DNA of 59,798 bases, taken from contig NZ_JAQFWQ010000039.1 of NCBI RefSeq assembly GCF_027706725.1, positions 1-59,798 of the forward strand. Direction: 5' to 3'. Source of the stretch: Nocardiopsis endophytica. Its GTDB lineage: Bacteria > Actinomycetota > Actinomycetes > Streptosporangiales > Streptosporangiaceae. The position numbers and the translations under genes were made by a program. Below the pieces are notes generated by a model. The model had not been told where the DNA came from. It worked only from the letters and a program-made list of their open reading frames with translations, and searched no databases. Of the stretch, positions 22,615 to 59,798 are shown piece after piece; positions within the stretch are counted from its first letter, which is position 1, and each line of letters starts with the position of its first letter.

Positions 22615-22678
22615 CGTTGATCTCGGGGAAGTCGGGGTAAAAACGGACAGCATAAGCCCGACTTCCCCGAGATCAACG
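22615..22678. terminator. 64-bp palindrome element P2
   Basis: A perfect 22-bp inverted repeat beginning CGTTGATCTCGGGGAAGTCG, with a 20-nt loop. It lies between the 3' ends of the phosphatase gene and the large orphan gene. Its ends CGTTGATCTCG / CGAGATCAACG are shared with five other elements in the window. Confidence 0.85.
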
Positions 22679-22690
22679 AGGTGCGGAGCG

Positions 22691-24472
22691 CTACAGGTCG
22701 TTCAGGTGATCGGCCAGGGCACCCGGGCGTCCCGAGCGGTCGGCGGCCTCCATGGCCGCGATCAGCGCCCGCAGTACCGCCGGGCGGCTCTCGCCCCGGT
22801 CCAGGAGGCGCTGGGCCGCCGCCCACAGTTCCGGCGGGTCGCCCTCCCACAGCCGTTCGGCCAACCGCTCGTGGGCGGCCAGCTCGGCTTCGGCCGCCGC
22901 CCGGTCCGAATCCCGCTCGGACGCCCGACCGGAACACCCCGTGCCGCCCCGCCCCGAACCCGACGCCGCACGGCGGTGGGCCCCGGTCCTCCCGCCGTCG
23001 ACCGAGTGGCGGCCGCGCGGGCGCCCCTCGGGGTCGTCGATCTCGCCGAAGTGGTCCAGCTTGAGCAGCGCCCGCCGCCCCTGCGCGGTCGACGGGTCGA
23101 ACGCCCCCTCGGCGTCGTCCAGCAGGTCGCCCGCCAGCAGCGGGAAGGCGAACATGCGCCGCGGCAGCGCCTCCAGGTCCCCGTCCGGCAGCAGCCGCCG
23201 CACCTCGCGGCGGCCCAGCCCGAGCGACTCGGCCGGGTCCCTGTAGGTCTCGGTGAACGGTCCGATCGCCTCCCACAGCGCGTCCAGCGCCGCCCCGACC
23301 GCCGGTTCGGGCAGCCCCCACCGGGGGCCCGCCCAGCGGATCCACGCGCCCAGCACGTGCGGCATCGCCTCGCACTCCTCGCGCAGCAGCACCACACGGC
23401 GCGGAAGCCAGGTGAGCAGGAACGCCTCCACCTTGCGGGGGCTCACCCGCAGCGGGCGCCCGCCGTCCACGTCGCACCCGTAGGCGATGATGTGGTCCAC
23501 GCACCGGCTGGCGGCGTAGGAGTCGGACAGCTCGGCGGCGGTCTCCGAGGCCAGGAAGCGCGCCGCGAGGGTGGCCCGGTCGTCGCGCCGCCACACCGGC
23601 TCCGGCGCCGGGCGCCCCTCCCGGGGCAGCGCCCGCATCCGCGACCGCAGCAGCGCGTGCACCGAGCTGAGCGACCCGCCCAGCAGGTCGTCGCGCCGGG
23701 CGGCGGTGAGCCGCGCCGGGCGACCCGTGCCGCCCGCCACGACCCGGTCGGTGCGCCGCAGCGCCGCCTCCAGCAGCGTGCGCGCCCGGCCGGGGGAGAT
23801 CCGGGTGAAGACCGCCATCGGGTTGTGCCCGGCCTCGGTGCGGGCGTGCTCCAGCAGGCGGCCCACCTTGCTCGTCACCCAGGCGTCCCGCAGCACGCCC
23901 CCCGCGTTGTGGTCGATGACGGCGATGAGCGCGTGGGTCGCCGACGCCTCGTCCGGCTCGCCGGGCGCGTCCGCGGCCCCGGACCCCGCGGCGGGCCCGT
24001 CCGCCGGGTCCTCCGCCTCGGTCGTCCGCCGGAAGGTGCACACCACCTCGTCGGCGTCGCCGAACCGGTCCCCGGAGCGGTACGCCGCCACCGGCCGGGC
24101 CGCGCCCAGCTCCCGCACCCACGCGGGCAGCGCCATGCCGTGGTCGGACAGGGCCAGCGCCCCCTGCCGGGCCAGCTCCCGGCGGTGCTCGGTCGGACCG
24201 AGCGCGGCGATCCCGGACAGCAGGGCCAGACCGGCCGGGCTGCGCGCGGCGGTGGCGCGCGCGATCAGCCCCTCGCCCAGGTGGCGCTCGACGTCGTCAC
24301 CGCTCATCCCCGGCATGCTCCGGCCCCACCAGGCGCCCAGCATCCGGCTCAGCGCGAGCTCGGCGTCGAGCGGGTCGCGCATCGCCAGCAGGGCGCGGGC
24401 CACCCGGAGCATCTCGTCGAAGACCGGCTCCGGGGCGGCTCCGGAGCCCGGGGGAAGGGGAGGTACGGACAC
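22691..24472 (-). CDS. Large orphan protein, unknown function
   Basis: A 593-residue cytoplasmic protein that matches no family I recognise. It is Arg/Ala/Leu-rich and mainly helical. Residues of about 155-180 and 500-550 are Gly/Pro/Arg-rich linkers; the middle holds a well-ordered part (SVHALLRSRMRALPREG, SYAASRCVDHIIAYGCDVDGGRPLRVSPRKVEAFLLTWLPRRV). The C-terminus is a helical domain ending LIAAMEAADRSGRPGALADHL. The GTG at 24472 lies 7 nt after TAGGCT, so I prefer it to an ATG seven codons earlier. No operon partner is visible. Confidence 0.72.
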   Translation of the reverse strand: MSVPPLPPGSGAAPEPVFDEMLRVARALLAMRDPLDAELALSRMLGAWWGRSMPGMSGDDVERHLGEGLIARATAARSPAGLALLSGIAALGPTEHRRELARQGALALSDHGMALPAWVRELGAARPVAAYRSGDRFGDADEVVCTFRRTTEAEDPADGPAAGSGAADAPGEPDEASATHALIAVIDHNAGGVLRDAWVTSKVGRLLEHARTEAGHNPMAVFTRISPGRARTLLEAALRRTDRVVAGGTGRPARLTAARRDDLLGGSLSSVHALLRSRMRALPREGRPAPEPVWRRDDRATLAARFLASETAAELSDSYAASRCVDHIIAYGCDVDGGRPLRVSPRKVEAFLLTWLPRRVVLLREECEAMPHVLGAWIRWAGPRWGLPEPAVGAALDALWEAIGPFTETYRDPAESLGLGRREVRRLLPDGDLEALPRRMFAFPLLAGDLLDDAEGAFDPSTAQGRRALLKLDHFGEIDDPEGRPRGRHSVDGGRTGAHRRAASGSGRGGTGCSGRASERDSDRAAAEAELAAHERLAERLWEGDPPELWAAAQRLLDRGESRPAVLRALIAAMEAADRSGRPGALADHLNDL

Positions 24473-24479
24473 CTGCCCG

Positions 24480-24485
24480 AGCCTA
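24480..24485 (-). promoter_or_regulatory. Putative -10 box of the orphan gene
   Basis: TAGGCT on the minus strand, 7 nt before the GTG at 24472. Confidence 0.55.
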
Positions 24486-24677
24486 TGGCACATGCCGCGG
24501 CCGCACGCCGCCGATGAACAGGACCGCGGAAAGGCGGGGCGTCCGGTGTCCGCCGGGGCGGTGGGAGAGGGGCCGGGGCTCCGGCGGCGGCCCCGTGCGA
24601 ATGCCGGAGGGATCGCGCGGGAAACGTGCGTGAACGACGGCGGTGCGGCGCCCGTCCCCGGAGGCGCCGCGGCCGGT

Positions 24678-24935
24678 TCAGTCCAGCGTGTCGTGGTCGG
24701 GCAGGCGCGGCGGCGCCAGCCTCCCCGACGGCGGCTGGGACATCACCATGGCCTGGAGCCGTTCCCGGGCGACCCGCTCCACCAGGACCGGGGTCGCCTG
24801 GAAGCCGAGGTGCTCGGCGCAGTTCCAGGCATCGCAGACGCAGCGCTCCACGAATCTCGGGGACAGGGAGCCGAACTCGTCGTTCAGGCGCCGGGCGACC
24901 TGTTGCAGCCCGGTCGCGGGAAAAGTCTGGAGCAT
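24678..24935 (-). CDS. Three-helix-bundle dimerisation-domain small protein
   Basis: An 85-residue protein. The pattern QVARRLNDEFGSLSPRFVERCVCDAW ... VLVERVARERL, shown here in part, fits the small three-helix dimerisation-domain proteins common in actinobacteria, whose function is not established. Residues 66-85 are a Pro-rich tail. The cysteines in CVCDAWNC are unusual for the family and might bind metal or form disulfides. GAGCGAGG directly before the ATG is a poor ribosome binding site. Confidence 0.65.
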   Translation of the reverse strand: MLQTFPATGLQQVARRLNDEFGSLSPRFVERCVCDAWNCAEHLGFQATPVLVERVARERLQAMVMSQPPSGRLAPPRLPDHDTLD

Positions 24936-25460
24936 CCTCGCTCACGCCTCTCGCCGGCGGTGGTCGGACGGTGACCACCATCCATTTCATCCGCGCGGGA
25001 GGGAGTGTCAAGACCCGTCGGGGCAGACCTTGCCCAGCCTTTAAGCCCTGCGGGCGAACCGGTGGGGCGCGCGGGGCGCGGTCGGGCAGGAGGGGTTTCG
25101 GTCGTGGCGGTCCGAACCGTTGCGACGGCCCCCTCCACCGCGGCGTGCGGGGGGCCCACGGGACAGGGCGAAAAAAGGGGGGCCGAAAAACCGGCAGGGG
25201 AAGGCGGGGAGAAAAGGGACGGCGTATCATCTGTCCTCTGCAGTCGCCCCCGACTTTCCGTCGCCGTCCGGCCCGCCGGACCGATGTGGCTTATGCTGTG
25301 GCGGTGGCGGCGACCGAGCCGCGCCGCATCGCCCCTCGGGCGGGGCCCTCCGCCCCGTCCGCCGAGCGCGGCCCGGCCGGAGCAGATGTGCACGTGTTTC
25401 CGGCGCTCGCGCGCGCGAGCCCCCGTCCAACGGGGGAAGGACCCCCCGGAGGTGTCACTG
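24936..25460. other. Long intergenic region upstream of the phosphatase gene
   Basis: About 525 bp without a credible gene. It contains a purine-rich stretch at about 25165-25225 (GCGAAAAAAGGGGGGCCG and GGGAGAAAAGGGACGG) and, just after it, GTATCATCTGTCC. The promoter of the SpoIIE-family gene is probably here. Frames across it show no domain. Confidence 0.45.
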
Positions 25461-27518
25461 GTGAGCACCGAGACGTCCGTTCCGCTCCCTCGCATGTCCG
25501 GACTCGGCCCCTCCGACTCGGCGCTGCTGGACACGATCCTCAAGGAAGCCCCGATCGGCTTCGCGCTCTTCGACTCCTCCTGCCGCTTCCAGCGGGTCAA
25601 CCCGTCCCTGGCCGCCGTGTACGGGGTGGACGAGCAGGACTGCCTCGGACTGCGCCCCGCCGACGTGCTCGGCCCGGCCGACGCCGCCGCCCACGAGACC
25701 GCCCTGGCGGCCGTCATCACCGGCGACCGCGACCTGTGCGGCGAGCACCGCTTCCCCGCGGCCGGGGACGGCGGCCACTGGGCGCTGTCCTGGTTCCCGG
25801 TGCACGACGGCGCCGGCGACGTCGACGGGGTGGCCCTGATCGCCGTCGACCTGGGCGAGAAGAACGGCCGCCGCCGCACCGAGGAGCGCTACCGGGCCCT
25901 GCTGGCCGCCACCAACCAGGTGGTGTGGACCGCGTGCACCGACGGCCTGGTCACCGAGGACTGCCCGGAGTGGCGCGCGGTCACCGGCCAGTCGGAGGAG
26001 GAGTACCGGGGCCGGGGCTGGCTCGACGCCGTCCACCCCGACGACCGCCCGCGGGTGGAGCGCGCCTGGGACGACGCGGTCGCCGACCGCACCCTGTTCG
26101 ACGAGACCTTCCGGGTGCGCACCCGCTCCGGCGACCACCGCCACTTCCGCTCCCGCGCGCTGCTGATCGGCGACGGGGCGGCCTCCGAGTGGGTCGGCCA
26201 CAACACCGACGTGACCACCCAGCACGAGGGCGACGAGATGCGCCAGCGCCTCACCCAGCAGCTCGGCGAGGCGGCCCTGCGCACCGTGCGCCTGCAGAAG
26301 GCCACCGCCGACCTGGCCGAGGCGCTCACCGTCGCCGAGGTCGTGCAGGCCATGGCGGAGATCGGCCGCTCGGCCGTGGGCGCCGACCGCACCCGCGTGG
26401 CCGAGCTGGACGACGGCCGCACCCGGCTGCGGGTGATCGGCGAGTCCGGGGTGCCCGAGCGCGCCCGCTCCGCCGGGGCCGGGCAGGACGCCCTGATGGG
26501 GCTGGCCGTGCGCGACCTGCGCCCGCGCTTCGCCGGACGGCCCGAGGAGCTGCGCGCCCTGCTGGAGGAGGAGGAGCACGAGGCCGCCGCGGAGGAGCCC
26601 GCCCCCGGCGAACGTGCCTGGGCCGCGCTGCCACTGCTCAGCGGCGGCAAACCGATCGGCGCCCTGGGCTTCTCCTACGCCGCCGCGCGCGACGTGCCCG
26701 ACGAGGAGAAGGTCTTCCTGGAGGCGCTGGCCGGCCAGTGCGCCCTGGCGCTGGAGCGGGCCAAGCTCTTCGAGCGCGAGCACCGCACCGCCGAGGCGCT
26801 GCAGGCCAGCCTGCTGCCCGAGGACCTGCCGGAGGTGCAGGGCGTGCGGATGCGCGCCTTCTACCGCTCGGGCACCCAGCACGTGCAGGTCGGCGGCGAC
26901 TGGTACGACGCCTTCCCGCTGCCCGACGGCCGCGTGGCCGGGGTGCTGGGCGACGTCATGGGCAAGGGCATCAAGGCCGCCACCGGGATGAGCCGGGTGC
27001 GCAACGCGCTGCGGGCGCTGGCCTTCAGCATGCCCGAGCCCGCCGACGTGCTCACCGGCCTGGACCGCATGTTCGACGCCACCGAGGGCGCCGACCAGGT
27101 GACCACGCTCGTGTACTTCGTGCTCGACCCGGAGACCGGCCAGATCGACCTGAGCAACGCCGGGCACCTGCCGCCGCTGGTGGTCACCGAGAGCACCGAG
27201 CCCTGGCTGCTGGAGACCGAGCCCGACACGCCCCTGGGCGTGCGGGCCGAGCGGGGCCATCATAAGTTTTTCGTCCAACCCGGTAACACCGTGGTGCTCT
27301 ACTCCGATGGACTTGTTGAGAACCGGAGGCGGTCCGTCGCGTCCGGGCTGGAAGAATTGGTCACCGTTGCGTCTCAGGCGCCGCCGGAGGTGGTGGGGGA
27401 TCCACAGCACATGCTCCAGTACCTTGTGGAGGGCATGCTCGCAGGGTATGAGCAGGACGACGACGTCACGCTGCTCGCCGTCCACCTCCCGGTGATCGAG
27501 GCCGCACCGGAGGCGTAG
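25461..27518 (+). CDS. PAS-GAF-PP2C (SpoIIE/RsbU-type) serine phosphatase
   Basis: A 685-residue signalling phosphatase. Two PAS domains (about 20-130 and 140-260), a GAF domain (about 275-440) and a PP2C/SpoIIE domain (about 460-675) follow in order. The PP2C metal-binding Asps are in GGDWYDAF (about residue 478), LGDVMGKG and VLYSDGLVE, and the family motif SLLPEDLP precedes them. Such enzymes dephosphorylate anti-sigma-factor antagonists. There is no membrane segment, so it senses cytoplasmic signals. GGAGG lies 8 nt before the GTG at 25461. The last 250 nt are clearly less GC-rich than the rest, and the gene ends 294 bp before hrdB. Confidence 0.93.
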   Translation: MSTETSVPLPRMSGLGPSDSALLDTILKEAPIGFALFDSSCRFQRVNPSLAAVYGVDEQDCLGLRPADVLGPADAAAHETALAAVITGDRDLCGEHRFPAAGDGGHWALSWFPVHDGAGDVDGVALIAVDLGEKNGRRRTEERYRALLAATNQVVWTACTDGLVTEDCPEWRAVTGQSEEEYRGRGWLDAVHPDDRPRVERAWDDAVADRTLFDETFRVRTRSGDHRHFRSRALLIGDGAASEWVGHNTDVTTQHEGDEMRQRLTQQLGEAALRTVRLQKATADLAEALTVAEVVQAMAEIGRSAVGADRTRVAELDDGRTRLRVIGESGVPERARSAGAGQDALMGLAVRDLRPRFAGRPEELRALLEEEEHEAAAEEPAPGERAWAALPLLSGGKPIGALGFSYAAARDVPDEEKVFLEALAGQCALALERAKLFEREHRTAEALQASLLPEDLPEVQGVRMRAFYRSGTQHVQVGGDWYDAFPLPDGRVAGVLGDVMGKGIKAATGMSRVRNALRALAFSMPEPADVLTGLDRMFDATEGADQVTTLVYFVLDPETGQIDLSNAGHLPPLVVTESTEPWLLETEPDTPLGVRAERGHHKFFVQPGNTVVLYSDGLVENRRRSVASGLEELVTVASQAPPEVVGDPQHMLQYLVEGMLAGYEQDDDVTLLAVHLPVIEAAPEA

Positions 27519-27812
27519 ACCGTAAGAACAAGTCCGACACCTAAGGTGGAGGAACCATCATCCCCGCTCACGCGGGGGGTGGGGTCAGGACCCGACAGTG
27601 GGATCGGATCCGTGCGGCCGCGGAGAAAAATCCTACTGGGCGGATGGGCCCAAACGCTAGAGAGGGCGCATACGCTGATAGGGAATCGGCAACCCCGCCT
27701 CGCGGGCGGGGACGATCCCGGGCAACAGCCGGGGGGCGGTGGCTCCGCCTCCCACAGGTCTTCGGACCGCCGGGTCCAGCAATCTCGCCACACGTCCGTT
27801 CGAGAGGTGTTT
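27519..27812 (+). promoter_or_regulatory. hrdB upstream region
   Basis: The 294 bp between the phosphatase gene and hrdB hold no gene. ATACGCTGATAGGGAATCGG at about 27669-27688 has a -10-like look. CCCCGCCT/GGGCGGGG near 27693-27712 forms a hairpin in the leader. GAGAGG at 27802-27807 is the ribosome binding site. Confidence 0.45.
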
Positions 27813-29579
27813 GTGTCACCTGCCAGTTCGACCCGCTCTAAACAGCCGGAGTCGCTGCAAGAGCCCGTCATCCAGCAGCTGATCGAGCGTGGGCGGTCCC
27901 AGGGGTACCTTGAGCCCGAGGACGTGCGCCGTGCCTTCGAAGAGGCCGACATCCCGATGTCCCAGGCCCAGGCCGTGCTGCGCAGCCTGACCAAGGAGGG
28001 CGTCACCCTCGTCGTCGGTGCCGAGGAGTCCGCGCCCTCGCGCCGCAAGTCCGCGCGCCGCAAGAACGCGGCCCCGAAGAAGCCGGCCGCCCGGTCCTCC
28101 TCCGCGCCGTCCGCCTCCTCGGCCCAGCCCTCGTCGGCCTCCGCGTCCGGTTCGGCCTCCCGCACCACGCGGCGCGCCGCCGCGGCGCAGGAGCAGCCCG
28201 AGACGGTGACCGCGGTCGTGGACTCCGGCGCCGCCGAGGACGCCCCGCGCAAGCGGGCCGCCGAGGCCGATGAGGCCCAGGCGCGCCCGGCGAAGAAGGC
28301 GGCCGCCAAGAAGGCCGCGGCCAAGCCGGCGGCCAAGGCCGCGCCCGCCGCCAAGAAGGCGGCGGCCAAGGGCGGGGCGAAGAAGAAGGACGAGCCCGCG
28401 CTGGAGGTCGCCGAGGACGACGGGGACGACCTCGACCTCGAGGTCGCCGACTCCGAGGAGATCGAGGACACCGGCGCCGAGCTGGAGCTGGTCGAGGACA
28501 CCGAGGACAAGCCCGAGCCGGTCGGCGGGCCGATCGCCCCGGCCGGGGGCAAGCCCGAGGTCGTCGGCATCCCGGAGAAGGCGGCGGCCAACACCTCCGA
28601 GGACGAGGCCTTCGTCCTCTACGACGATGACGACGACGCCCCCGCCGCGCAGGTGGTGGCGGCCGGCGCCACCGCCGACCCGGTCAAGGACTACCTCAAG
28701 CAGATCGGCAACGTGGCGCTGCTCAACGCCGAGCAGGAGGTCGAGCTCGCCAAGCGGATCGAGGCCGGCCTGTTCGCGGAGGAGAAGCTCGCCGAGGAGC
28801 GCGACGTCCTGAGCGACGAGTTCCTCGACGAGCTGGAGTGGATCGCCGGCGACGGCGCCCGCGCCAAGAAGCACCTGCTGGAGGCCAACCTCCGGCTGGT
28901 CGTCTCGCTGGCCAAGCGCTACACCGGCCGCGGCATGCTCTTCCTGGACCTGATCCAGGAGGGCAACCTGGGCCTGATCCGCGCCGTGGAGAAGTTCGAC
29001 TACACCAAGGGCTTCAAGTTCTCCACCTACGCCACCTGGTGGATCCGCCAGGCCATCACGCGCGCGATGGCCGACCAGGCGCGGACCATCCGCATCCCGG
29101 TGCACATGGTGGAGGTCATCAACAAGCTGGCCCGCGTGCAGCGCCAGATGCTGCAGGACCTCGGCCGCGAACCCACTCCGGAGGAGCTCGCCAAGGAGCT
29201 CGACATGACCCCGGAGAAGGTCGTGGAGGTGCAGAAGTACGGCCGCGAGCCGATCTCCCTGCACACCCCGCTGGGCGAGGACGGCGACAGCGAGTTCGGC
29301 GACCTCATCGAGGACTCCGAGGCCATCCAGCCGGGCGAGGCGGTCAGCTTCACCCTGCTGCAGGAGCAGCTCCACTCGGTGCTCGACACCCTGTCCGAGC
29401 GCGAGGCGGGCGTGGTCTCCATGCGGTTCGGCCTCACCGACGGCCAGCCCAAGACCCTCGACGAGATCGGGAAGGTCTACGGGGTCACGCGCGAGCGGAT
29501 CCGACAGATAGAGAGCAAGACGATGTCCAAGCTGCGGCACCCGTCGCGGTCCCAGGTGCTTCGCGACTACCTGGACTGA
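27813..29579 (+). CDS. hrdB: Principal RNA polymerase sigma factor HrdB/RpoD
   Basis: The housekeeping sigma-70 factor, 588 residues. The N-terminal 285 residues hold a Lys/Ala-rich tract ([18 protein letters not shown]) followed by a strongly acidic stretch, as in HrdB of Streptomyces. Region 1.2 begins near residue 289 ([11 protein letters not shown]), region 2 near 354 ([31 protein letters not shown] for -10 recognition), region 3 follows, and region 4.2 at about 549-579 carries the helix-turn-helix for the -35 box ([10 protein letters not shown]). The GTG at 27813 has GAGAGG before it. A 14-bp terminator follows. Confidence 0.96.
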
Positions 29580-29603
29580 CCTCGTCTGAGGAGATGCGGC
29601 GCC

Positions 29604-29638
29604 GCGGGCGCCGGCCGTTCACCCCGGCCGGCGCCCGC
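29604..29638 (+). terminator. Terminator of hrdB
   Basis: A perfect 14-bp stem, GCGGGCGCCGGCCG / CGGCCGGCGCCCGC, with a 7-nt loop, 24 nt after the stop codon. Confidence 0.8.
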
Positions 29639-29874
29639 GATGCCGTCGGCTTCGGCGGTGCGCCCGCGGACCGCGCGTCCTGCGACCCGGGTGTGGCGAG
29701 GCCCGGGAACCAGGCGCCGCGGTGCGCTCCGCCGAGGCGGATGTCGTTCACGTCCGTCATTCCGATCCAGCATCTTGCCGTTCACGATCCTCGCGGAGAG
29801 GGCGTATGGACGGGATAAAGCGTCGATACGGCTTCGTTACGCCCTCCCGTCGCCCTCCACCACCCTCAACCCTG
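29639..29874. other. Non-coding spacer behind hrdB
   Basis: About 236 bp between the hrdB terminator and palindrome P3. I see no gene, promoter or repeat in it. Confidence 0.5.
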
Positions 29875-29875
29875 G

Positions 29876-29939
29876 CGATGATCTCGACAGAAGTGCTGCC
29901 GAACGAGCGATTTTGACAGCACTTCCGTCGAGATCATCG
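29876..29939. terminator. 64-bp palindrome element P3
   Basis: Arms CGATGATCTCGACAGAAGTG... and ...CACTTCCGTCGAGATCATCG pair over 23 bp with one mismatch around an 18-nt loop; one more outer pair also fits. It lies between the convergent hrdB and yaaA genes. Arms and loop edges closely match element P5 at 54125. Confidence 0.85.
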
Positions 29940-29945
29940 CGGGGG

Positions 29946-30743
29946 TCAGTCGCGGATGACCACGTCCAGCGTCGACGGGCGCCCCGCCTTGGCCGGGGCC
30001 GTCAGCTCGGCGGTGTGCCCCAGGTCGTTCAGCGCCTCGGCCAGCTCCGCAGGCGTCTCCGGCGCCCGTCCCTCGGCGAGCAGGGTGTGGGCGATCGCCC
30101 CGCGCGTCGCCTTGGCCATGTGGCTGACCACGCTGCGCTTCACCTCGCCGCCCTTGACGGTCTCCTTCAGCACCCGCACCGTCGCCGTTCGGTCGGCGAC
30201 CTCCCCGGAGGGCTTGAACGCCGCCGCGTACGTCGATGAGCGGCAGTCGACGACGAGCCGCCCCTCCGCTCGCTTGGCCACCGCGTCGGTCAGGTGCGAG
30301 CGCCAGAAGGTTCCCAGGGCTCCCACGGGAGGCAGCTTGACGCCCATCGACAGGCGGTACGGGGGCAGCGGGTCGCCGACCCCCACCGCACCCCACAGCC
30401 CGGAGAACACCAGCACGGAATCACGCATGCGCTCCGCCGCCGGGCCGGACAGCAGCTCGCCCAGCCGCAGGTTGTCGTAGAGAACACCGGTGTACAGCCG
30501 CGCGGCGGGAAGCGTTGGCGCCGTGCGCAGCGCAAGGTTCCGGCCGACGGCGTCGGCCTGGCCTGGCGTGAGGCCGAGGACCTCCATGGCCCGCTCGCGG
30601 GGGCCCGAGCACACGGCCTCCAGGGACTCCAGCACCGCCTCCCGAGCCCCGTTCACCTCGGGCAGCGACAGCTCGGCGAGGTCCAGCGCGGGACCGTCCC
30701 CCTCGGTCGCCTTGCCTTCGGACGGGGGCAGCAGGATGAGCAT
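29946..30743 (-). CDS. yaaA: YaaA-family peroxide-stress protein
   Basis: A 265-residue cytoplasmic DUF328/UPF0246 protein. Family hallmarks are the N-terminal MLILLPPSEGKATEG, the middle SGLWGAVGVGDPLPPYRLSMG, and VVDCRSSTYAAAF. In E. coli YaaA lowers free iron and protects DNA during peroxide stress; whether the actinobacterial branch does the same is not known. GAGGGAG precedes the ATG at 30743. It could be cotranscribed with the small upstream gene at 30867. Confidence 0.9.
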   Translation of the reverse strand: MLILLPPSEGKATEGDGPALDLAELSLPEVNGAREAVLESLEAVCSGPRERAMEVLGLTPGQADAVGRNLALRTAPTLPAARLYTGVLYDNLRLGELLSGPAAERMRDSVLVFSGLWGAVGVGDPLPPYRLSMGVKLPPVGALGTFWRSHLTDAVAKRAEGRLVVDCRSSTYAAAFKPSGEVADRTATVRVLKETVKGGEVKRSVVSHMAKATRGAIAHTLLAEGRAPETPAELAEALNDLGHTAELTAPAKAGRPSTLDVVIRD

Positions 30744-30866
30744 GGACTCCCTCTCACAGCGAACCGGGCGGTGCCCGATGGCGGCCGCCCGGTGGTCGTC
30801 GACCGCCGGTCAGGCGGTGTGGGCTCTCAAAACCCTGATCGTAGTGCAGTGATGCCAGTGCGCCTC

Positions 30867-31091
30867 TCACGGGGACCGGCGGGGCCGGTAGTTCCGCTTG
30901 TCACTCAAGAACTCCAAGTCGAGTCCTCCACTGTCCGCGAGGGCCTGAAGCCCTCGGAGTGCGGCCGAGCGCTCTCGGCGAAGTCGGGCCTCCTCTTCGG
31001 TGATCTCCTCGTCATCGTGCGAGGGAGAGTCCTCGTCCGTCGGGCCACCGGACATCTGCTCCGGCAATCCGTCCTCCCAGGGAGTCGGCAC
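30867..31091 (-). CDS. Small acidic protein, unknown function
   Basis: A predicted 74-residue protein. The first half is very acidic (DEDSPSHDDEEITEEE), the second half helical and then basic (LEFLSDKRNYRPRRSP). No family is recognised. The frame is open far upstream as a shadow of the GNAT gene. I chose the GTG at 31091, where AGGA lies close upstream; this start is uncertain. It is divergent from the GNAT gene and lies 123 bp before yaaA on the same strand. Confidence 0.5.
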   Translation of the reverse strand: MPTPWEDGLPEQMSGGPTDEDSPSHDDEEITEEEARLRRERSAALRGLQALADSGGLDLEFLSDKRNYRPRRSP

Positions 31092-31157
31092 GAAATCCTG
31101 ATGACCCTCTGTGTAGCATCCCGACCCGCGCGATGAACGGCTTTCGAGGGAGAGCGC

Positions 31158-31883
31158 ATGACCATCGGCACATGGGCGGCGAGGCTGGCCGAGGACTGGC
31201 CGGCCGCTGAGGTCGAGGTGCGGGGCGGCTGGCGCCTCGGTGCGGACGGCGGTGTCACCCGCCGTGCCAACTCCGCGCTCCCGGTCGGGCCCGAGCCCCG
31301 TATCGAGGCCATGGAGGCGTTCTACCGCGAGCGCGGCATCACCCCCTGCGTCCAGGTGTGGAGCGGCGACCCCGGCACCGACGAGGCCCTCGTCGCCCGC
31401 GTCGACGCCGCGCTCGAAGCGCGCGGCTACCGGGCCGAGCAGAGCACGCTCCTGATGACCAGGCCGCTCGGCGCCGCCCCGGCCCCGCCCGAGGGCGTCG
31501 ACGTGCTTCCCGGACCCGACGAGCGGTGGCGCGCCGTGGCGGACGCCTCCGGCGAGAGCCCGACCCGCACGCAAGGCGCCCTGCGCATCCTCGGCCGGGC
31601 CCCCGTCGTCGGGTACGCGGTCGACGCGGACGGCGCCGCGCGGGGGAGCGTGGCCGTCGGCGGCGGCCGCTGCGGGATCTTCACCATGACCACGGTGCCC
31701 GCCGAGCGCGGGCGCGGACGGGCGGGGCGCATCATGGACGCCCTCCTCGCCTGGGCGCACGCCAAGGGCGCCCACGAGGCCTATCTGGTGGTCGAGGCCG
31801 ACAACGCCGCCGCCGTGCGCGCCTACGGCCGGGCCGGGTTCGTGAAGGTGGGCGGCTACCGCTACCGGGTCGCGCCGGGCTGA
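31158..31883 (+). CDS. GNAT-family N-acetyltransferase
   Basis: A 241-residue acetyltransferase. The N-terminal half has WRLGADGGVTRRANSALP, seen in the group containing M. tuberculosis Rv0428c; the C-terminal half is the GNAT domain with the acetyl-CoA motif PAERGRGRAGRIM and the closing ADNAAAVRAYGRAGF. The substrate is unknown. GAGGGAGAG is the ribosome binding site before the ATG at 31158. A strong terminator separates it from the convergent DUF7455 gene. Confidence 0.88.
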   Translation: MTIGTWAARLAEDWPAAEVEVRGGWRLGADGGVTRRANSALPVGPEPRIEAMEAFYRERGITPCVQVWSGDPGTDEALVARVDAALEARGYRAEQSTLLMTRPLGAAPAPPEGVDVLPGPDERWRAVADASGESPTRTQGALRILGRAPVVGYAVDADGAARGSVAVGGGRCGIFTMTTVPAERGRGRAGRIMDALLAWAHAKGAHEAYLVVEADNAAAVRAYGRAGFVKVGGYRYRVAPG

Positions 31884-31945
31884 TCCCGTGTGACCGCGGT
31901 GCGCAGGCGTGCGGTCACGGTGCGCACCGCCCCCGGAACGACACC

Positions 31946-31975
31946 GAGGCGGCGGCCCGGTCGGGCCGCCGCCTC
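31946..31975. terminator. Bidirectional terminator between GNAT and DUF7455 genes
   Basis: A perfect 14-bp stem, GAGGCGGCGGCCCG / CGGGCCGCCGCCTC, with only 2 nt between the arms. It lies between the 3' ends of two convergent genes. Confidence 0.75.
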
Positions 31976-31997
31976 AGGTCTGCCAGGGGTGGAGTTC

Positions 31998-32228
31998 CTA
32001 ACGCTCCTCATCGGGGGACGTGGCCGGGGTCTCCTGCAGCCGGCTGGTCTCGTCCTGGATCTCAGCGGCGATCTTGCGGATCTCGTCGTCGTGCTCGCGC
32101 ATGTGGTGAGCGCAGAACAGCAACTCTCCGCCGGAGTTGAGAAGCACCCGGACGTAGGCCTGCGCACCGCAGCGGTCGCAGCGGTCGGCGGCCGTCAGCG
32201 GCTGAGTGGGGGCAAGGGTTCCAGTCAC
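31998..32228 (-). CDS. DUF7455 zinc-ribbon-like small protein
   Basis: A 76-residue protein with a possible metal site: Cys17 and Cys20 (DRCDRCGAQAYVRVLL), then Cys39 and a His pair (LLFCAHHMREHDDEI). This is the DUF7455 pattern found in many actinobacteria, often beside the type II topoisomerase gene, as here where it is divergent from parE. The function is unknown. GAGGAAGG precedes the GTG at 32228. Confidence 0.85.
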   Translation of the reverse strand: MTGTLAPTQPLTAADRCDRCGAQAYVRVLLNSGGELLFCAHHMREHDDEIRKIAAEIQDETSRLQETPATSPDEER

Positions 32229-32636
32229 TTCGCCTTCCTCAATGCTCGGCGTTAGTCACCTCAGACAACATCTAACCGGCCCCCGACGTTCCCAACCTGG
32301 TCTTCTGTACGCCGACAGCGGAATCGGACGGCCCCCGGCCCGGGATGCGGACCGGCGACACGCCGTGCGGGGCGGGCGATGCCGCGGCCGGAGGCCCGTG
32401 GTAGAGAGGTGGTAATGTCGCTTGGGCCCGGCCGCGCGCCGCCGCCCGCACGCGCCCCGCCGCACCGCCGCGGTCGGGGGAGGCCGAGGTCGGCCCGGCG
32501 ATGTCCCCGCGCGCGGATAGGCTGGCCCGAGCCCCGGCGCCCGCGGGGAGAGGCCTCCCCGCCCGCCCGCGCCCCGCGCACGCAACGCCCCGGAGGGCGT
32601 CCGCGTGCCCTGTCCGACGAAGCAGGAGACGTCCAG
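32229..32636. other. Divergent DUF7455-parE intergenic region
   Basis: 408 bp with no credible gene. It should hold the promoters for both genes. GGTAGAGAGGTGGTAATGTC at 32400-32419 is an A/T-richer patch that may contain the parE promoter. The rest is Arg/Pro-coding shadow with very high GC. AGGAG at 32624-32628 is the parE ribosome binding site. Confidence 0.4.
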
Positions 32637-34742
32637 GTGACCGCCCTTACCGCCGCCGTCCACGAGCCCGAGGATTACTCCGCACGGCATCTTTCGGTCC
32701 TGGAAGGCCTGGAGGCGGTCCGCAAGCGCCCCGGCATGTACATCGGCTCGACCGACAGCCGCGGGCTCACCCACTGCATGTGGGAGATCATCGACAACTC
32801 GGTCGACGAGGCCCTCGGCGGCTTCTGCTCGCGCATCGACGTGGTGCTGCACGCCGACGGGTCGGTGGAGGTGCGCGACGACGGCCGCGGCATCCCCGTC
32901 GACGCCGAGCCCAAGTCCGGGCTGTCCGGCGTGGAGCTGGTGATGACCAAGCTGCACGCCGGGGGCAAGTTCGGCTCGGGCTCCTACACCGCCTCCGGCG
33001 GCCTGCACGGCGTGGGCGCCTCGGTGGTCAACGCCCTGTCGGCCCGCCTGGACGTGGAGGTCGACCGGGACGGGCGCACCCACTCCATGAGCTTCCGCCG
33101 GGGCATCCCCGGCTCCTTCTCCGACGCCGGGCCCGACGCCGCCTTCTCCGCCGGCTCCGGCCTGCACAAGGGCAAGAAGATCGCCAAGAGCGCCACCGGA
33201 ACGCGCGTGCGCTTCTGGGCCGACCGGCAGATCTTCCTCAAGGAGGCCGACATCGCCCGCGAGGCGCTGCTGGACCGGGCGCGCCAGACGGCCTTCCTCA
33301 TCCCGGGGCTGACCATCGCCGTGCGCGACGAGCGCACCGAGGGCGAGCCCCCCTTCACCGAGGAGTTCCGCTTCGACGGCGGGATCGGCGAGTTCTGCTC
33401 CTTCCTCGCCCCCGACGAGCCGATCTGCTCGGTCCTGCGCTTCCAGGGCCAGGGCCACTTCACCGAGACGGTGCCCGTCCTGGACGAGATGGGCCACATG
33501 ACCCCCACCGACGTCGAGCGCACCCTCGACGTGGACGTCGCGCTCCGGTGGGGGACCGGCTACGACTCCACCGTGCGCTCCTTCGTCAACGTGATCGCCA
33601 CCCCCAAGGGCGGCACGCACCTGGCCGGGTTCGAGCGCGCGCTGGTGCGGGTGGTCAACGACCAGCTCCGCGCCACCAAGCTGCTCAAGGCCAACGACGA
33701 CGCCGTCACCAAGGAGGACGTCCTCGAGGGCCTGACCGCCGTGGTGACGGTGCGCCTGCCCGAGCCGCAGTTCGAGGGCCAGACCAAGGAGATCCTGGGC
33801 ACCTCGGCGGCCTCGCGCATCGTGTCCCAGGTGGTCGCCAAGGAGCTGAAGGAGTTCCTGGCCTCCACGAAGCGCGCCGAGAAGCAGCAGGCCCGCACGG
33901 TGCTGGAGAAGGCCGTCAACGCCGCCAAGGCGCGCCTGGCCGCCCGCCAGCAGCGGGAGACCCAGCGCCGCAAGAACGCGCTGGAGAGCTCGGCGCTCCC
34001 GGCCAAGCTGGTGGACTGCCGCAGCGAGGGGCTGGACCGCAGCGAGCTGTTCATCGTCGAGGGGGACTCGGCGCTGGGCACCGCCAAGCTCGCCCGCGAC
34101 TCGGAGTTCCAGGCGCTGCTGCCGATCCGCGGCAAGATCCTCAACGTGCAGAAGTCCTCGGTGGGGGACATGCTCAAGAACGCCGAGTGCGCGGCCATCC
34201 TGCAGGTCATCGGCGCGGGTTCGGGCCGCACCTTCGACCTGGACGCGGCCCGCTACGGCCGGGTCATCCTGATGGCCGACGCCGACGTGGACGGCGCGCA
34301 CATCCGCTGCCTGCTGCTGACGCTGTTCTACCGGTACATGCGCCCGATGCTGGAGGCCGGGCGGGTGTACGCGGCCGTGCCGCCGCTGCACCGGATCGAG
34401 CTGACCAACGTGCGCAAGAAGCGCGGCGCCAAGCCCGAGGACCGCTACATCTACACCTACTCCGACGCCGAGCTGCAGCGGACGCTGCTGGAGCTGGAGA
34501 AGAAGGGCAAGACCTGGAAGGAGCCGGTGCAGCGGTACAAGGGCCTGGGTGAGATGGACGCCGACCAGCTCGCCGAGACCACGATGGACCCGCGCCACCG
34601 CACCCTGCGCCGCATCCGGGTGGAGCACGCCGAAGAGGCGGCCAAGGTGTTCGACCTGCTCATGGGCAACGAGGTCGCCCCGCGCCGCAAGTTCATCGCC
34701 GACGGCGCCCAGGAGCTGGACCCCGACCGCATCGACGCCTGA
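32637..34742 (+). CDS. parE: DNA topoisomerase IV (gyrase-like) subunit B
   Basis: The ATPase subunit of a type II topoisomerase, 701 residues. The GHKL ATPase domain shows EIIDNSVDEALGGF (Mg-binding Asn, catalytic Glu region), DDGRGIPV and GGLHGVGASVVNALS. The TOPRIM domain has IVEGDSALGTAKLARD with the metal Glu and DADVDGAHIRCLLLTLF. The end YKGLGEMDADQLAETTMDP is typical. I assign it to ParE rather than GyrB because it lies away from the origin genes dnaA-recF and shares the region with a ParC-like subunit. AGGAG precedes the GTG at 32637 by 8 nt. Confidence 0.92.
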   Translation: MTALTAAVHEPEDYSARHLSVLEGLEAVRKRPGMYIGSTDSRGLTHCMWEIIDNSVDEALGGFCSRIDVVLHADGSVEVRDDGRGIPVDAEPKSGLSGVELVMTKLHAGGKFGSGSYTASGGLHGVGASVVNALSARLDVEVDRDGRTHSMSFRRGIPGSFSDAGPDAAFSAGSGLHKGKKIAKSATGTRVRFWADRQIFLKEADIAREALLDRARQTAFLIPGLTIAVRDERTEGEPPFTEEFRFDGGIGEFCSFLAPDEPICSVLRFQGQGHFTETVPVLDEMGHMTPTDVERTLDVDVALRWGTGYDSTVRSFVNVIATPKGGTHLAGFERALVRVVNDQLRATKLLKANDDAVTKEDVLEGLTAVVTVRLPEPQFEGQTKEILGTSAASRIVSQVVAKELKEFLASTKRAEKQQARTVLEKAVNAAKARLAARQQRETQRRKNALESSALPAKLVDCRSEGLDRSELFIVEGDSALGTAKLARDSEFQALLPIRGKILNVQKSSVGDMLKNAECAAILQVIGAGSGRTFDLDAARYGRVILMADADVDGAHIRCLLLTLFYRYMRPMLEAGRVYAAVPPLHRIELTNVRKKRGAKPEDRYIYTYSDAELQRTLLELEKKGKTWKEPVQRYKGLGEMDADQLAETTMDPRHRTLRRIRVEHAEEAAKVFDLLMGNEVAPRRKFIADGAQELDPDRIDA

Positions 34743-34750
34743 GCGCGCAC

Positions 34751-34794
34751 GGCGCCCCTGCGCCCGGCCGCCCGTGGCCGGGGGCAGGGGCGCC
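34751..34794 (+). terminator. Terminator of parE
   Basis: An outer stem GGCGCCCCTGC / GCAGGGGCGCC with an inner stem CCCGGCC / GGCCGGG. It starts 8 nt after the stop codon. Confidence 0.75.
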
Positions 34795-34916
34795 GCCGTG
34801 TTCGGCCCGCCCCCGGCGCGGATGCGCCGTTTTCACGCTCGGTCGTGTTTGAATCACCGTAAGTGACGCAACTCGCCCGGACCCGGGCGGGGAGAACCGC
34901 GAAGCGACGGTGAGCG

Positions 34917-35669
34917 ATGAGCGACGGTCAGCAGTATCCGGAACCCGGGGGCCAGGACCGGCCGCCGCAGGGCGGTGGGCCCGGGCAGGGCGGCCCTCCG
35001 CCTCCCGGCTCCACGCCCCCGGGTGGGCAGAGCCCCTACGGCGGCCCCGGTGGCCCCGGCGGACCGGCCGGACCCGACGTCCCGTCCGGGCCGCAGCAGC
35101 CCCAGCCGCAGCAGTGGGCCCAGGAGCCCCCCGGCCACGGGGCCGGACAGCCGGCCTACGGGGCACCCGGCCCGGCCCAGCAGGCCTACGGCGGCTACGG
35201 CCCGCCCGCCGCCGCGGGCGTCCCGGGCGATGTCGACGTGGTGGGGCGCCGGGTCGGGCAGTACATCATCGACGGCATCCTGTCGTCGATCATCCCGCTC
35301 GTGGCCATGGCCGTGCTGCTGCCGCTGGCCTTCATGCCGACCGAGCCGGACGGATCGCCCAGCAACCCCGGCCTGGCCGCGTTCCTCACCATCCTGGTGA
35401 TCGTGCTGTGGGTGCTCATCTACATCGGCTACTGGGTGGTCTGGCCCGCCAAGGCCGGAGGGCAGACGCTGGGCATGAAGATGCTCGGGCTGCGGGTCGT
35501 CTCCGCCGACGGGTCCGAGGCGACCATGGGGCAGCACTTCCTGCGCTGGCTGCTGCTGATCGTGGACGGCATCTTCTACGGCCTGGTGGGCCTGATCGTC
35601 ATCCTGGCCAGCCAGGGCAACCAGCGGGTGGGCGACATGGTCGCCAAGGCCTACGTGGTGCGCGCCTGA
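34917..35669 (+). CDS. RDD-family membrane protein
   Basis: A 250-residue protein. About 100 N-terminal residues are Gly, Pro and Gln-rich and disordered. The RDD domain follows with the starting motif VGRRVGQYIIDGILSS and three membrane segments (about residues 118-140, 155-176 and 208-230), and the conserved GGQTLGMKMLGLRVV. RDD proteins are widespread and mostly uncharacterised; some act as transporters. Ribosome binding site is poor. Palindrome P4 lies directly behind it. Confidence 0.87.
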   Translation: MSDGQQYPEPGGQDRPPQGGGPGQGGPPPPGSTPPGGQSPYGGPGGPGGPAGPDVPSGPQQPQPQQWAQEPPGHGAGQPAYGAPGPAQQAYGGYGPPAAAGVPGDVDVVGRRVGQYIIDGILSSIIPLVAMAVLLPLAFMPTEPDGSPSNPGLAAFLTILVIVLWVLIYIGYWVVWPAKAGGQTLGMKMLGLRVVSADGSEATMGQHFLRWLLLIVDGIFYGLVGLIVILASQGNQRVGDMVAKAYVVRA

Positions 35670-35703
35670 GGGGCCGCCGTCCCCACAGGCGCGCCCGCCC
35701 GCT

Positions 35704-35767
35704 CGATGATCTCGGGAGGAACGACGCTGCCGGCGCGGTTTCAGGGTCGCTTTTCCCGAGATCAACG
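35704..35767. terminator. 64-bp palindrome element P4
   Basis: Arms CGATGATCTCGGGAGGAACG and TTTTCCCGAGATCAACG-type pair imperfectly over 26 bp around a 12-nt loop. It lies between the convergent RDD and Cds1-like genes. Its reverse complement aligns over the whole 64 bp with element P6 at 54276, so the same element sits in both orientations. Confidence 0.85.
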
Positions 35768-35787
35768 CGGGTTCGGCCGCTGCGGGG

Positions 35788-36918
35788 TCACTCCGCGGGC
35801 GGCTCCCAGTCGCCGGTGGCCAGGAACCGCTCGATGGCGGCGGTGTAGGGCTCCAGCTCCATCCCCTGGCGGGCCACCCACGCGTCGTCGTAGTAGCTGT
35901 GCCGGTAGCGCTCGCCGCCGTCGCAGATGAGCGTGACGACGCTGCCGCGCACCCCCTCGCGCAGCATCCGGGCGACCAGCTGCCAGACGCCCCACATGTT
36001 GGTGCCGGTGGACCCGCCTGCGCACAGGCCGGTCACCCGGTCCAGGTGCCGCATGGCCGCGATGCTCGCCGCGTCGGGGACCGGCACCATCACGTCGATC
36101 ACGTCCGGAACGAAGCTGGGCTCCATGCGCGGCCGCCCGATCCCCTCGATGCGCGAGGGCATGCCGGTGGCGTAGTCCGCGGCCCCGGTGACCCATCCGG
36201 GGAAGAACGCCGAGTTCTCCGGGTCCACCACCGCCAGCCGGGTGTGGTGCCGCCGGTAGCGCAGGTAGCGGCCGATGGTCGCCGACGTGCCGCCGGTGCC
36301 CGCGCCCACCACGATCCACTCGGGGACGGGGTGGCGCTCCATGGAGAGCTGGTCGAAGACCGACTCGGCGATGTTGTTGTTGCCCCGCCAGTCGGTGGCC
36401 CGCTCGGCGTAGGTGAACTGGTCCATGTAGTGCCCGCCGGTCTCGGCGGCCAGCCGCTCGGCCTCGTCGTACATCTCCGGGGGCTTGTCCACGTAGTGGC
36501 AGCGCCCGCCGTAGCGCTCGATGAGGGCGATCTTCTCGGGGCTGGTGGAGCGCGGCACCACCGTCACGAAGTCCACCCCGATGAGCCGGGCGAAGTAGGC
36601 CTCGGAGACGGCGGTCGACCCGGAGCTGGCCTCGACCACCGTGGTGCCCTCCCGGATCCAGCCGTTGGCCAGCCCGTAGAGGAACAGCGACCGGGCGAGC
36701 CGGTGCTTGAGGCTGCCGGTGGGGTGCACCGACTCGTCCTTGAGGTAGAGGTCGATGCCCCACGCCTCGGGCAGGGGGAAGGCGTGCAGGTGGGTGTCGG
36801 CCGACCGGTTGGCATCGGCCACCACCTTGCGCACCGCCTCGTCGACCCAGCCCCGGGTACGCGCGCACGAGCGGTCCACGGGCCCGTTGCCGGGGCCGTG
36901 GGCAGAGGATCCGTCCAT
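35788..36918 (-). CDS. PLP-dependent cysteine synthase-fold enzyme (Cds1-like)
   Basis: A 376-residue fold-type II PLP enzyme. The PLP lysine is Lys71 in [11 protein letters not shown], the phosphate-binding loop is [12 protein letters not shown], and [15 protein letters not shown] is the substrate loop. The SLKHR variant and length match the actinobacterial L-cysteine desulfhydrase Cds1 (Rv3684) rather than CysK. It would release hydrogen sulfide, pyruvate and ammonia from cysteine. The ATG at 36918 lies 7 nt after TAGGCT, giving a probable leaderless mRNA. It ends at palindrome P4. Confidence 0.87.
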
Positions 36919-51363: not shown

Positions 51364-51370
51364 CAAATCC

Positions 51371-54124: not shown

Positions 54125-54188
54125 CGTTGATCTCGACGGAAGTGCTGCCGAATCCGCCGGAATGACAGCACTTCCGTCGAGATCATCG
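54125..54188. terminator. 64-bp palindrome element P5
   Basis: CGTTGATCTCGACGGAAGTG... pairs with ...CACTTCCGTCGAGATCATCG over 23 bp with one mismatch; the loop is 18 nt. It is nearly the same as P3 (29876). It lies 36 bp behind the Pat-like gene. Confidence 0.85.
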
Positions 54189-54275: not shown

Positions 54276-54339
54276 CGTTGATCTCGGGAAAAGCGCCCCT
54301 AAAAGCGGCCCGGTAGCGTCGTTTCTCCCGAGATCAACG
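54276..54339. terminator. 64-bp palindrome element P6
   Basis: CGTTGATCTCGGGAAAAGCG pairs with CGTTTCTCCCGAGATCAACG with two mismatches over 20 bp. The whole 64 bp aligns with the reverse complement of P4 (35704). A second element in the same intergenic space, 87 bp from P5. Confidence 0.85.
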
Positions 54340-54413: not shown

Positions 54414-54647
54414 TCAGGCGGGCTCGGGCTGCGGTTCGGGCTCGGGAGGGAGTGGGCCCGGCCCCGGATCCGGCCCGGGTCCGGGGCCCGGTTCCGGGTC
54501 GGGCACGGGCGGCTCCGGCGGGACGGGTGTGGGGCCCGGCGGGGTCGGCCCCGGCCCCGGCGGCGGCGGTTTCGGCAGCGGCGGGACCGTTCCGCGGGGC
54601 GCGGGCCCGCGGGGCGTCCGGAATCGGATGCGCGCAATCGCCTTCAT
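54414..54647 (-). CDS. Possible small Pro-rich protein
   Basis: A 77-residue frame: MKAIARIRFRTPRGPAPRG, then about 55 residues that are almost only Pro, Gly, Glu and Asp. The lysine/arginine-rich start and an ATG near a GGGCGGGGG stretch make a real gene possible, and it would make the gap at 54089-54413 a convergent junction like the others. But low-complexity DNA gives open frames easily, so it may be non-coding. Confidence 0.4.
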   Translation of the reverse strand: MKAIARIRFRTPRGPAPRGTVPPLPKPPPPGPGPTPPGPTPVPPEPPVPDPEPGPGPGPDPGPGPLPPEPEPQPEPA

Positions 54648-56611: not shown

Positions 56612-56617
56612 TAGATT
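56612..56617 (+). promoter_or_regulatory. Putative -10 box, leaderless start at 56625
   Basis: TAGATT followed by 7 nt and GTG; no ribosome binding site. Confidence 0.55.
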
Positions 56618-56624
56618 GCGCCCC

Positions 56625-57113: not shown

Positions 57114-57133
57114 GCGCAACGGAAGGAGACCCG

Positions 57134-58587: not shown

Positions 58588-58847
58588 GGCCCGGCCGCGG
58601 CCGGTAGGGCCCGGCCCCGCCGACGGGCCTGCGGCCCCGCGTAGGGCCGACGGACGCCGCCCGCGCCCCGGCACCGGGAGCTCCCCCACAGGGTTCCGCC
58701 ACCCCCGCCGGGGCGCGATGGCCGCTCCGCCTGTCGCCCGCCGGGGCGCGTCGGCCGTTCCGCCTGTCGCCCCCGCCCCGCCCGCCGCCCCGGTGCGGCG
58801 GCGCCGTCAGTGTTCGGACGCCGTGCCCGGAGGACGGCGCTCGGCCA
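58588..58847. other. Non-coding convergent spacer
   Basis: 260 bp between convergent genes. GGCCCGGCCGCGGCCGGTAG and nearby blocks form GC-rich hairpins directly after the stop codon that may terminate transcription. GGGGCG-CGxxGGCC-type direct repeats lie near 58710-58760 (CCGCCTGTCGCCC twice). No 64-bp palindrome is here. Confidence 0.4.
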
Positions 58848-59243
58848 TCAGCGCTCGGACAGCGGGCGGCGTCCGAAGAAGCCGAGTTCGCTCCGGTGGT
58901 ACCAGCCGAGGGCGGTCTCGCCTTCGAGCCAGCACAGGCGCACGGACACCCCGTCGAGCATGGCGGGGAAGTCGAGCAGGATCGGCGCCAGCCCCTTGAC
59001 CTCGATCCCGTTGTCGGGGAACCAGGCCTGGAGCTCGCTGAAGCGCGCTTCCATCCCCTTGAGCTCGGCTCGGCCGCCGAGTGCCGAGTCCCCGGCGATC
59101 CGCAGGTCGGCGGCGAGCTCGGCCATGTCGGCGCGGAGCGTGACGAGTTCGCCGGCGCGCTCCATGACCTCCGGCATGAGCGCGTGGACCTCGCCGAGGG
59201 TGAACTCCCGATGCTCTGGGGCGTCGTCGTTCTCGTAGCTCAT
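58848..59243 (-). CDS. DUF2203-family protein
   Basis: A 131-residue soluble protein of the DUF2203 family (FTLGEVHALMPEVMERAGEL; LADLRIAGDSALGGRAELKG-like middle; VRLCWLEGETALGWYH, ELGFFGRRPL at the end). The GETALGWYH stretch is the family hallmark. Function is unknown; the fold is a helical part followed by a small beta domain. GGAGGT stands 7 nt before the ATG at 59243; the frame is open further upstream but without a ribosome binding site. Confidence 0.87.
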   Translation of the reverse strand: MSYENDDAPEHREFTLGEVHALMPEVMERAGELVTLRADMAELAADLRIAGDSALGGRAELKGMEARFSELQAWFPDNGIEVKGLAPILLDFPAMLDGVSVRLCWLEGETALGWYHRSELGFFGRRPLSER

Positions 59244-59533
59244 CGATCGACCTCCGGGAAACCCCCGCGTCCAGGCGGGGGAGGAAACGGACTCCTGCGG
59301 AGCAACGCGGGAGGGCGGCGTCCCCGTCCCACCCGATGGCCCCAGTCTGTACCATCCGCGCCGCTGACCGGAGCGGTGGCGGAGTCGTGCCCCGGTGTCA
59401 TTTCCCCCGGACGCAGGACAGCGCTGCCGGAAGGGCCGCCCTCCCGCTTCTCCCGGTTCAGGCGGCTGAGCCGGTACCCCGCTCACGGCCCCGGGCCGGG
59501 CGGCGGGTGGCCGGGGTGTGGGGTGGATGGCGG
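59244..59533. other. Upstream region of the DUF2203 gene
   Basis: No gene seen. A promoter for the DUF2203 gene should be near 59270-59340, but none stands out. Repeat A begins just to the right. Confidence 0.35.
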
Positions 59534-59735
59534 CGACGAGGCCAGGTGGGCGGCCCTTCCGCCAGCACTGTCGGGCGCGGCGCGTGTGCGTGGTCGCCGT
59601 GAAGGGCGGCGACGGCGACAGCGGGGCGGTTCCCGGGCCCTGCCTGCCGTCCGCCGGGCCCCTGCTGGTCCGGGAGGTCGGCGCGGCGGGTGGGCAGGTG
59701 GTCGCCCGCGCTCGCGGCGGCCGCCACCCCGGTGC
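59534..59735 (+). repeat. 220-bp repeat A, single unit
   Basis: Direct orientation, aligning with 17220-17430: CGACGAG, then the core GCGCGTGTGCGTGGTCGCCG and GGTTCCCGGGCCCTGCCTGC. The right part is more diverged. Confidence 0.75.
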
Positions 59736-59745
59736 GCCCCTTCGG

Positions 59746-59798
59746 CGATGATCTCGACAGAGGTGCTGTCATTCCGGCCGTTTTGACAGCACCTTCGT
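59746..59798. terminator. 64-bp palindrome element P7, cut by the window end
   Basis: CGATGATCTCGACAGAGGTG begins it; the right arm has reached CAGCACCTTCGT at the last base. If it is 64 bp like the others, it would end at 59809, outside the window. Subfamily as P3 and P5. Confidence 0.75.

Follow-up and report, generated by a model that had tools for sequence, protein, structure and literature searches.

Palindromes in the window

The window analyzed here is the entire contig C39 (NZ_JAQFWQ010000039.1, 59,798 nt) of the 7.26-Mb, 211-contig genome of Nocardiopsis endophytica (G000), a species near Nocardiopsis suaedae (G002). It carries five complete palindromes, each of 64 bp, starting with CGWTGATCTCG and finishing with CGAGATCAWCG, plus a sixth truncated by the contig end, as the initial annotation had placed them. 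The unit has near-invariant 11-bp inverted ends, a complementary but variable middle stem and a loop of ~12 nt. Pairs of the form TGATCTCG-N25..55-CGAGATCA number five in the window, against a mean of 0.00 in 100 shuffles. The elements and one gene relevant to their position are as follows.

22615..22678: complete 64-bp element, subfamily A, between the end of a Y_phosphatase3 gene at 22599 (+) and a gene end at 22691 (-)
29876..29939: complete element, subfamily B, 6 bp from the end of a YaaA gene at 29946 (-); the N. suaedae copy is identical
35704..35767: complete element, subfamily C, between the end of an RDD gene at 35669 (+) and the end of a PALP gene at 35788 (-)
54125..54188: complete element, subfamily B, downstream of a gene end at 54088 (+); the N. 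suaedae copy has the inverted orientation
54276..54339: complete element, subfamily C, sharing a gap with the 54125 element; N. suaedae lacks it
54414..54647 (-): Pro-rich open reading frame (ORF) of 77 aa; if it is real, the 54-kb gap is convergent
59746..59798: subfamily B element truncated by the contig end to 53 of its 64 bp, abutting a ~205-bp repeat

The five complete copies are predicted to fold with 22-27 pairs, and only the one at 22615 lacks an internal mismatch. At the 35704 site the element is absent from G001 and G002, and a different subfamily is present in G005. The final codons of the 77-aa ORF recur, by eye, in the orthologous gaps of five relatives. The window gives no Rfam match at gathering score.

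The genome also contains mosaic islands, poor in genes, that are built of ~205-220 bp repeat units and in some cases include 64-bp elements: in the window at 1-1080, 17201-18514 and 59400-59798, and elsewhere (sites outside the window are given as contig:position) at C2:20842-22397, C3:17672-18751, C6:773-2941 and C7:79594-80954. The 205-bp unit has 36 blast places in 1.24 Mb.

Copy number, length and ends

The whole genome contains 367 pairs of the form TGATCTCG-N34..64-CGAGATCA, and none in the reversed control. Since gaps of 34-64 were allowed and 366 of the 367 pairs have a gap of exactly 42 (N42), the search does not impose the constant length, and the fixed size that had been read from the window holds genome-wide. 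A second scan fixed no end letters and asked only for well-paired 64-mers (at least 21 of the 26 outer pairs and at least seven of the outer 10). It returned 41 in 1.24 Mb of G000, 40 of which carry the family ends, so that the ends are not produced by the search either. The same scan gave 40 of 42 in N. suaedae pieces, which overlap in part so that some copies may count twice, and 17 of 19 in two genomes of genus g21. Because the assembly breaks inside copies (5 of the 11 contig starts seen, those of C2, C4, C5, C9 and C10, and the window end fall inside an element), all genome counts, including 366, are minima. Solitary 11-bp ends number 27 in the 1.24 Mb, 18 of them non-coding (mostly cut or decayed copies, by eye) and nine coding; no parent transposon or insertion sequence was recognized at them by eye within these 1.24 Mb, ~83% of the genome lying outside.

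One explanation would be that these are chance palindromes or unrelated ordinary terminators. There are indeed 87 other strong hairpins in the 1.24 Mb, and they too favor 3' gaps, with 39 in convergent, 39 in tandem and nine in divergent positions. The reversed control (0 versus 367) and the shuffles refute chance palindromes, leaving this explanation a negligible probability.

Folding and paired changes

Eighteen copies from the window and eight other genomes, hand-picked by eye (two because of their varying ends), align without gaps. Standard pairs occupy 95.5% of the 468 pair cells, and pairing falls to 34-46% when the partner is shifted by 1-3 columns. Across the six genera represented, changes on both sides are seen at 20 of 26 pairs, and two-sided changed cells amount to 136 versus 42.5 in shuffles, with 0 of 500 shuffles as high. 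Even the variation of the ends across genera is mostly paired (C10-G55 to T-A, T4-A61 to C-G, A6-T59 to G-C). Among 50 distinct G000 copies with common ends, 25 belong to subfamily C, 17 to B and eight to A. Diversity within subfamilies B and C is 0.02-0.05 in the ends versus 0.11-0.30 in stem or loop, in a set whose positions 4-11 were fixed by the search; the letter-free scan is not so bound.

Mean folding energy is -37.6 kcal/mol, -38.0 for the other strand and -16.7 for shuffled letters. The strand of the loop relative to transcription shows 4 versus 6 copies, with 12 undecided. The ends pair throughout, with no unpaired tag, and the flanks hold no conserved tetranucleotide. The 12 upstream bases are 50% C and the 12 downstream bases 55% G (35-38% C and 32-39% G in control hairpins). 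We rejected a stem running past 64 bp, as these flanks pair only to the degree that composition predicts.

Two further observations concern subfamily C. At pairs 21-44 and 23-42, many copies have one arm from each of two variants (ACGC/GCGT, CCCC/GGGG) paired together, as if arms had been exchanged between copies. At C4:128906-129120, a copy bears a ~140-bp loop insert with inverted ends and the repeated GGGCCGCTC on either side, probably a second, small mobile element inserted into the loop.

Distribution across genomes

N42 matches occur in 12 of 297 genomes of the family: six in the genus (366, 116, 66, 22, 13 and 10 copies), two in g21 (147 and 101), G069 (6), G014 (3), G083 (2) and G077 (1, not a hairpin). 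When up to three mismatches are allowed in the 11-bp ends, matches appear in 22 of 150 genomes from the order, with more than one match in 14; the reversed control gave one match, in G228. The variant ends TGATCTTG/CAAGATCA are found in G069 (123), G003 (70), G014 (16), G112 (11), G099 (8), G136 (4) and G083 (2), and the listed places with these ends share the common length in 36 of 50 (G069), 13 of 16 (G014) and 7 of 8 (G099). Length is also tight in G002 (gap 42 in 116 of 123), G005 (66 of 67) and G025 (147 of 151). The letters of hairpin copies were read in six genera (g1, g21, g63, g10, g77 and g7), and g61 contributes counts only. Named among the matches listed are N. suaedae, N. halophila, N. 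chromatogenes, N. potens and Actinorugispora endophytica; the named matches checked belong to Nocardiopsidaceae, and inspection covered the matches in Nocardiopsis and Actinorugispora, the listing naming some others besides.

In G029, of another genus, seven listed places hold inverted repeats with the same 8-bp ends and variable length, none of the seven with a gap of 42; they may form a sister family without the length rule. A second G069 subfamily, starting with TGATCTTGCTGTTTCCCC, mostly measures 54-57 bp between its outer bases, versus 58 in the main one.

Position relative to genes

We classified 48 G000 copies by the gap that holds them, leaving out three contig-edge copies and one chance pairing of 149 bp. 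Twenty-two lie in convergent, 22 in tandem and four in divergent gaps, where the room available predicts proportions of 0.241, 0.447 and 0.312 (p 0.001 for the convergent excess and 0.0003 for the divergent deficit). Genes were called with our own codon-usage caller, which missed the 77-aa ORF, so that both 54-kb copies count as tandem here. In gaps of up to 400 bp there are 14 convergent, nine tandem and no divergent copies. The trend is repeated in 400 kb of G025, with eight convergent, five tandem and no divergent copies (n=13; expected proportions 0.112 convergent and 0.320 divergent). The initial annotation had put every complete copy between convergent 3' ends, the two at 54 kb on condition that the Pro-rich ORF is real. 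Under that condition this stands in the window, and it fails for the 51 copies in 1.24 Mb, of which 22 are convergent, 22 tandem, four divergent and three at contig edges.

The upstream stop is within 40 nt for 15 of 25 tandem copies (6.5 expected), and the downstream start for three. In 11 of 15 convergent gaps with a copy, the pieces left over measure at most 47 nt. A further hairpin with a folding energy of -25 kcal/mol or lower is lacking in 12 of these 15 gaps and present in 78% of 85 copy-free ones, a comparison that is confounded with gap length and in which pieces shorter than 25 nt were not folded. The copies fill the slot where other convergent gaps hold ordinary hairpins. A U-less bidirectional terminator would present a strong hairpin close behind stops and usable on both strands, as these copies do. 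A scan of 22000-36500 for U-type terminators gave four sites versus 3.4 expected by shuffling; one of these (22660-22644, minus strand) lies within the 22615 copy, its T-run being the element's own loop.

The ends and their spacing are the most constant features of the unit, and they could be the binding site of a chromosome-organizing or nucleoid protein that needs a pair of half-sites in inverted orientation, spaced by 42 bp or four helical turns of 10.5 bp each. Such a site predicts neither the complementary, species-variable interior nor the crowding close behind stop codons, and no such protein is known; we consider it quite unlikely.

Orthologous sites in Nocardiopsis suaedae

The N. suaedae genome is 92-96% identical over the aligned window. 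Starting from G000 copies, we mapped 21 of 51 to it and resolved 15 by eye, dropping C3:61091, C4:17531, C4:17622, C6:30694, C9:14218 and C9:28751. Eight of the 15 sites share the element, one holds another subfamily and six are without it in N. suaedae. At C6:85367 and C39:35704 an unrelated hairpin takes the slot in N. suaedae, and at C3:138 kb an unrelated hairpin is found in G000 where N. halophila carries the element (all by eye). The shared site C2:114596 has unlike near flanks and, to judge from these, may represent two insertions.

Three of the six clearly oriented shared copies are inverted. At C6:79786, with flanks 99% identical, inverting the inner 18 bases erases all differences; C6:86387 and C39:54125 are also inverted, the latter along with some flanking bases (by eye). 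Orientation is unchanged at C2:106152, C6:40764 and C39:29876 and ambiguous at C2:114596 and C4:124703. The C4:124703 copy also shows differences at three terminal base pairs, in both partners each time. Together, the five diverged shared copies show 10 both-sided pair changes versus 3.0 expected if the sides were independent. Such changes could stem from conversion by other copies, from repair templated across the hairpin or from selection.

These sites bear on the idea that the elements are non-mobile host terminators inherited by common descent, maintained by selection and homogenized by gene conversion, with apparent gains being replacements. The tight 3' placement and slot filling fit it, as do the two-sided changes and the slots occupied in a relative by a different subfamily or by a hairpin of unrelated sequence (C2:86025, C6:85367, C39:35704). 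Against it, termination requires neither 64 bp nor these ends, ordinary G000 hairpins having many lengths from 28 to 76 bp; N42 copy numbers differ widely in close species (366, 116, 66, 10); and N. suaedae misses the element at six of the 15 resolved sites. We therefore regard common descent without mobility as unlikely.

Search for a mobilizing enzyme

The initial annotation had proposed looking for a transposase of the RAYT (REP-associated tyrosine transposase; REP, repetitive extragenic palindromic) or IS200 type with matching ends; we searched and found none. A PF01797 search gave a single Y1 protein in G000, which NCBIfam classes as IS200/IS605, far under the REP-associated cut-off. A Y1 protein or a large part of one exists in G000, G005, G025 and G102. 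Three of these proteins were classed (a second G025 hit and the G005 hit were left out), all as IS200/IS605 above cut-off with the REP-associated model far below. No element copy lies within the 3.4-kb locus of the G000 Y1 gene, nor in any of five Y1 loci examined. G003, G004, G014, G069 and G083 have no Y1 match at E<=1, and three of them are rich in copies: G003 with 114 (up to three mismatches), G004 with 76 and G069 with 123 (TTG ends). We thus dropped a link between Y1 genes and high copy number, and rejected a RAYT partner.

The element could still be a true REPIN (REP doublet forming a hairpin) moved by a RAYT or an IS200/IS605 TnpA. Its design matches that of REPINs (PMC3116915), and four genomes do have Y1 proteins or large parts of one; the high-copy genomes without a Y1 match, the class of the proteins and the empty Y1 loci all speak against it and make it improbable.

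Relation to known systems and interpretation

REPINs of Pseudomonas fluorescens SBW25 have two invariant ends in inverted orientation, a variable spacer in which both length and pairing are important, and compensatory changes (PMC3116915). The 64-bp family resembles them in its ends, its pairing spacer of fixed length, its compensatory changes and its hundreds of extragenic copies. It differs in being actinobacterial, in forming a single fully closing palindrome and in its 3'-gap bias. SBW25 REPINs accompany RAYT genes and are built of REP sequences (PMC3116915), whereas Y1 searches of G000, G003, G004, G014, G069 and G083 found no RAYT gene next to copies, and our elements lack the unpaired GTAG (or CGTC) tag per REP end given in PMC3733652. 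Because these two features were tested for and are absent, we do not class the element as a REPIN. Like the present unit, CGTC-tagged REPs are palindromic repeats that lack a dedicated transposase; they are described as 20-40 bp long, with an unpaired CGTC tag at one end (PMC3733652), and the present unit is longer and symmetric, with both ends paired. Miniature inverted-repeat transposable elements (MITEs) are likewise non-coding, with inverted ends and many copies, unlike this family in that no parent insertion sequence was recognized here (1.24 Mb, by eye) and no target duplication was seen. In Streptomyces clavuligerus, 353 of 535 highly structured transcript ends are without U, and both U-lacking (I-shaped) and bidirectional ends are described (PMC8269248). 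Our elements share the strong GC hairpin without a U-tract; those ends are mapped RNA ends and not an amplified repeat (PMC8269248), and our family is described from DNA. Searches of an open-access full-text library listed no description of the 64-bp family.

We favor, with a probability of roughly 0.55, a non-coding, non-autonomous, REPIN-like palindromic repeat, old in the Nocardiopsis group, that serves as a U-less bidirectional terminator. Both its movement and its role in termination are inferred; it would act like a REPIN and, probably, like a terminator. A trans-acting enzyme would recognize the pair of ends at their fixed distance, probably while the hairpin is extruded or single-stranded, and would copy the unit to new sites without target duplication. 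Copies would survive mainly right behind stop codons, where the hairpin could act both ways as a terminator or 3'-end block that needs no U-tract. The inversions, and some of the paired arm changes, would follow from hairpin or cruciform processing. The earlier proposal of an amplified REP/MITE-like unit agrees with the copy number, the fixed length and ends, the species-specific subfamilies and the presence or absence of the element at orthologous sites; an insertion event itself was not caught. The bidirectional terminator proposed with it is backed by position and symmetry, and not by T-runs or by exclusively convergent placement.

Several results weigh against the favored reading. No mobilizing enzyme was found in the Y1/RAYT searches, no clean empty site among the sites compared, and no consistent excess of target duplications (k = 2 to 12) around 51 copies. 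Flanks are repeated at two or more other places for 19 of the 51 copies, so some of the family spreads as part of larger repeats rather than by itself. The length is less strict in G004 (gap 42 in 22 of 33), G001 (10 of 13) and G003 (13 of 15). TTT occurs in none of the 66 downstream flanks of 15 nt, so that the T-run directly behind the stem of an intrinsic (U-tract) terminator is missing. Finally, within G000 subfamilies the middle stem varies without covariation beyond shuffles, and 12 tandem copies show no bias for G-U over A-C (6 versus 11); pairing of the middle stem in place is thus not strongly kept. In G002 covariation is weak (at pairs 12-18, the observed value is attained in 14 of 1000 shuffles for subfamily B and in 20 for subfamily C). 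On these grounds we rejected selection for RNA pairing in place.

More tentatively, the family may be an ancient hairpin replicator of the Nocardiopsis group, exactly 64 bp in at least six genera, its stem rewritten by paired changes. It would be moved by a class of enzyme with no link to REPs so far, one able to gauge how far apart the ends lie, and used as an exchangeable bidirectional terminator cassette.

The family extends the REPIN design to actinobacteria without a RAYT, and what moves or maintains such repeats becomes directly testable. Its inversions at fixed sites and paired arm changes offer a natural record of hairpin extrusion, and its differences between close species a natural record of terminator turnover.

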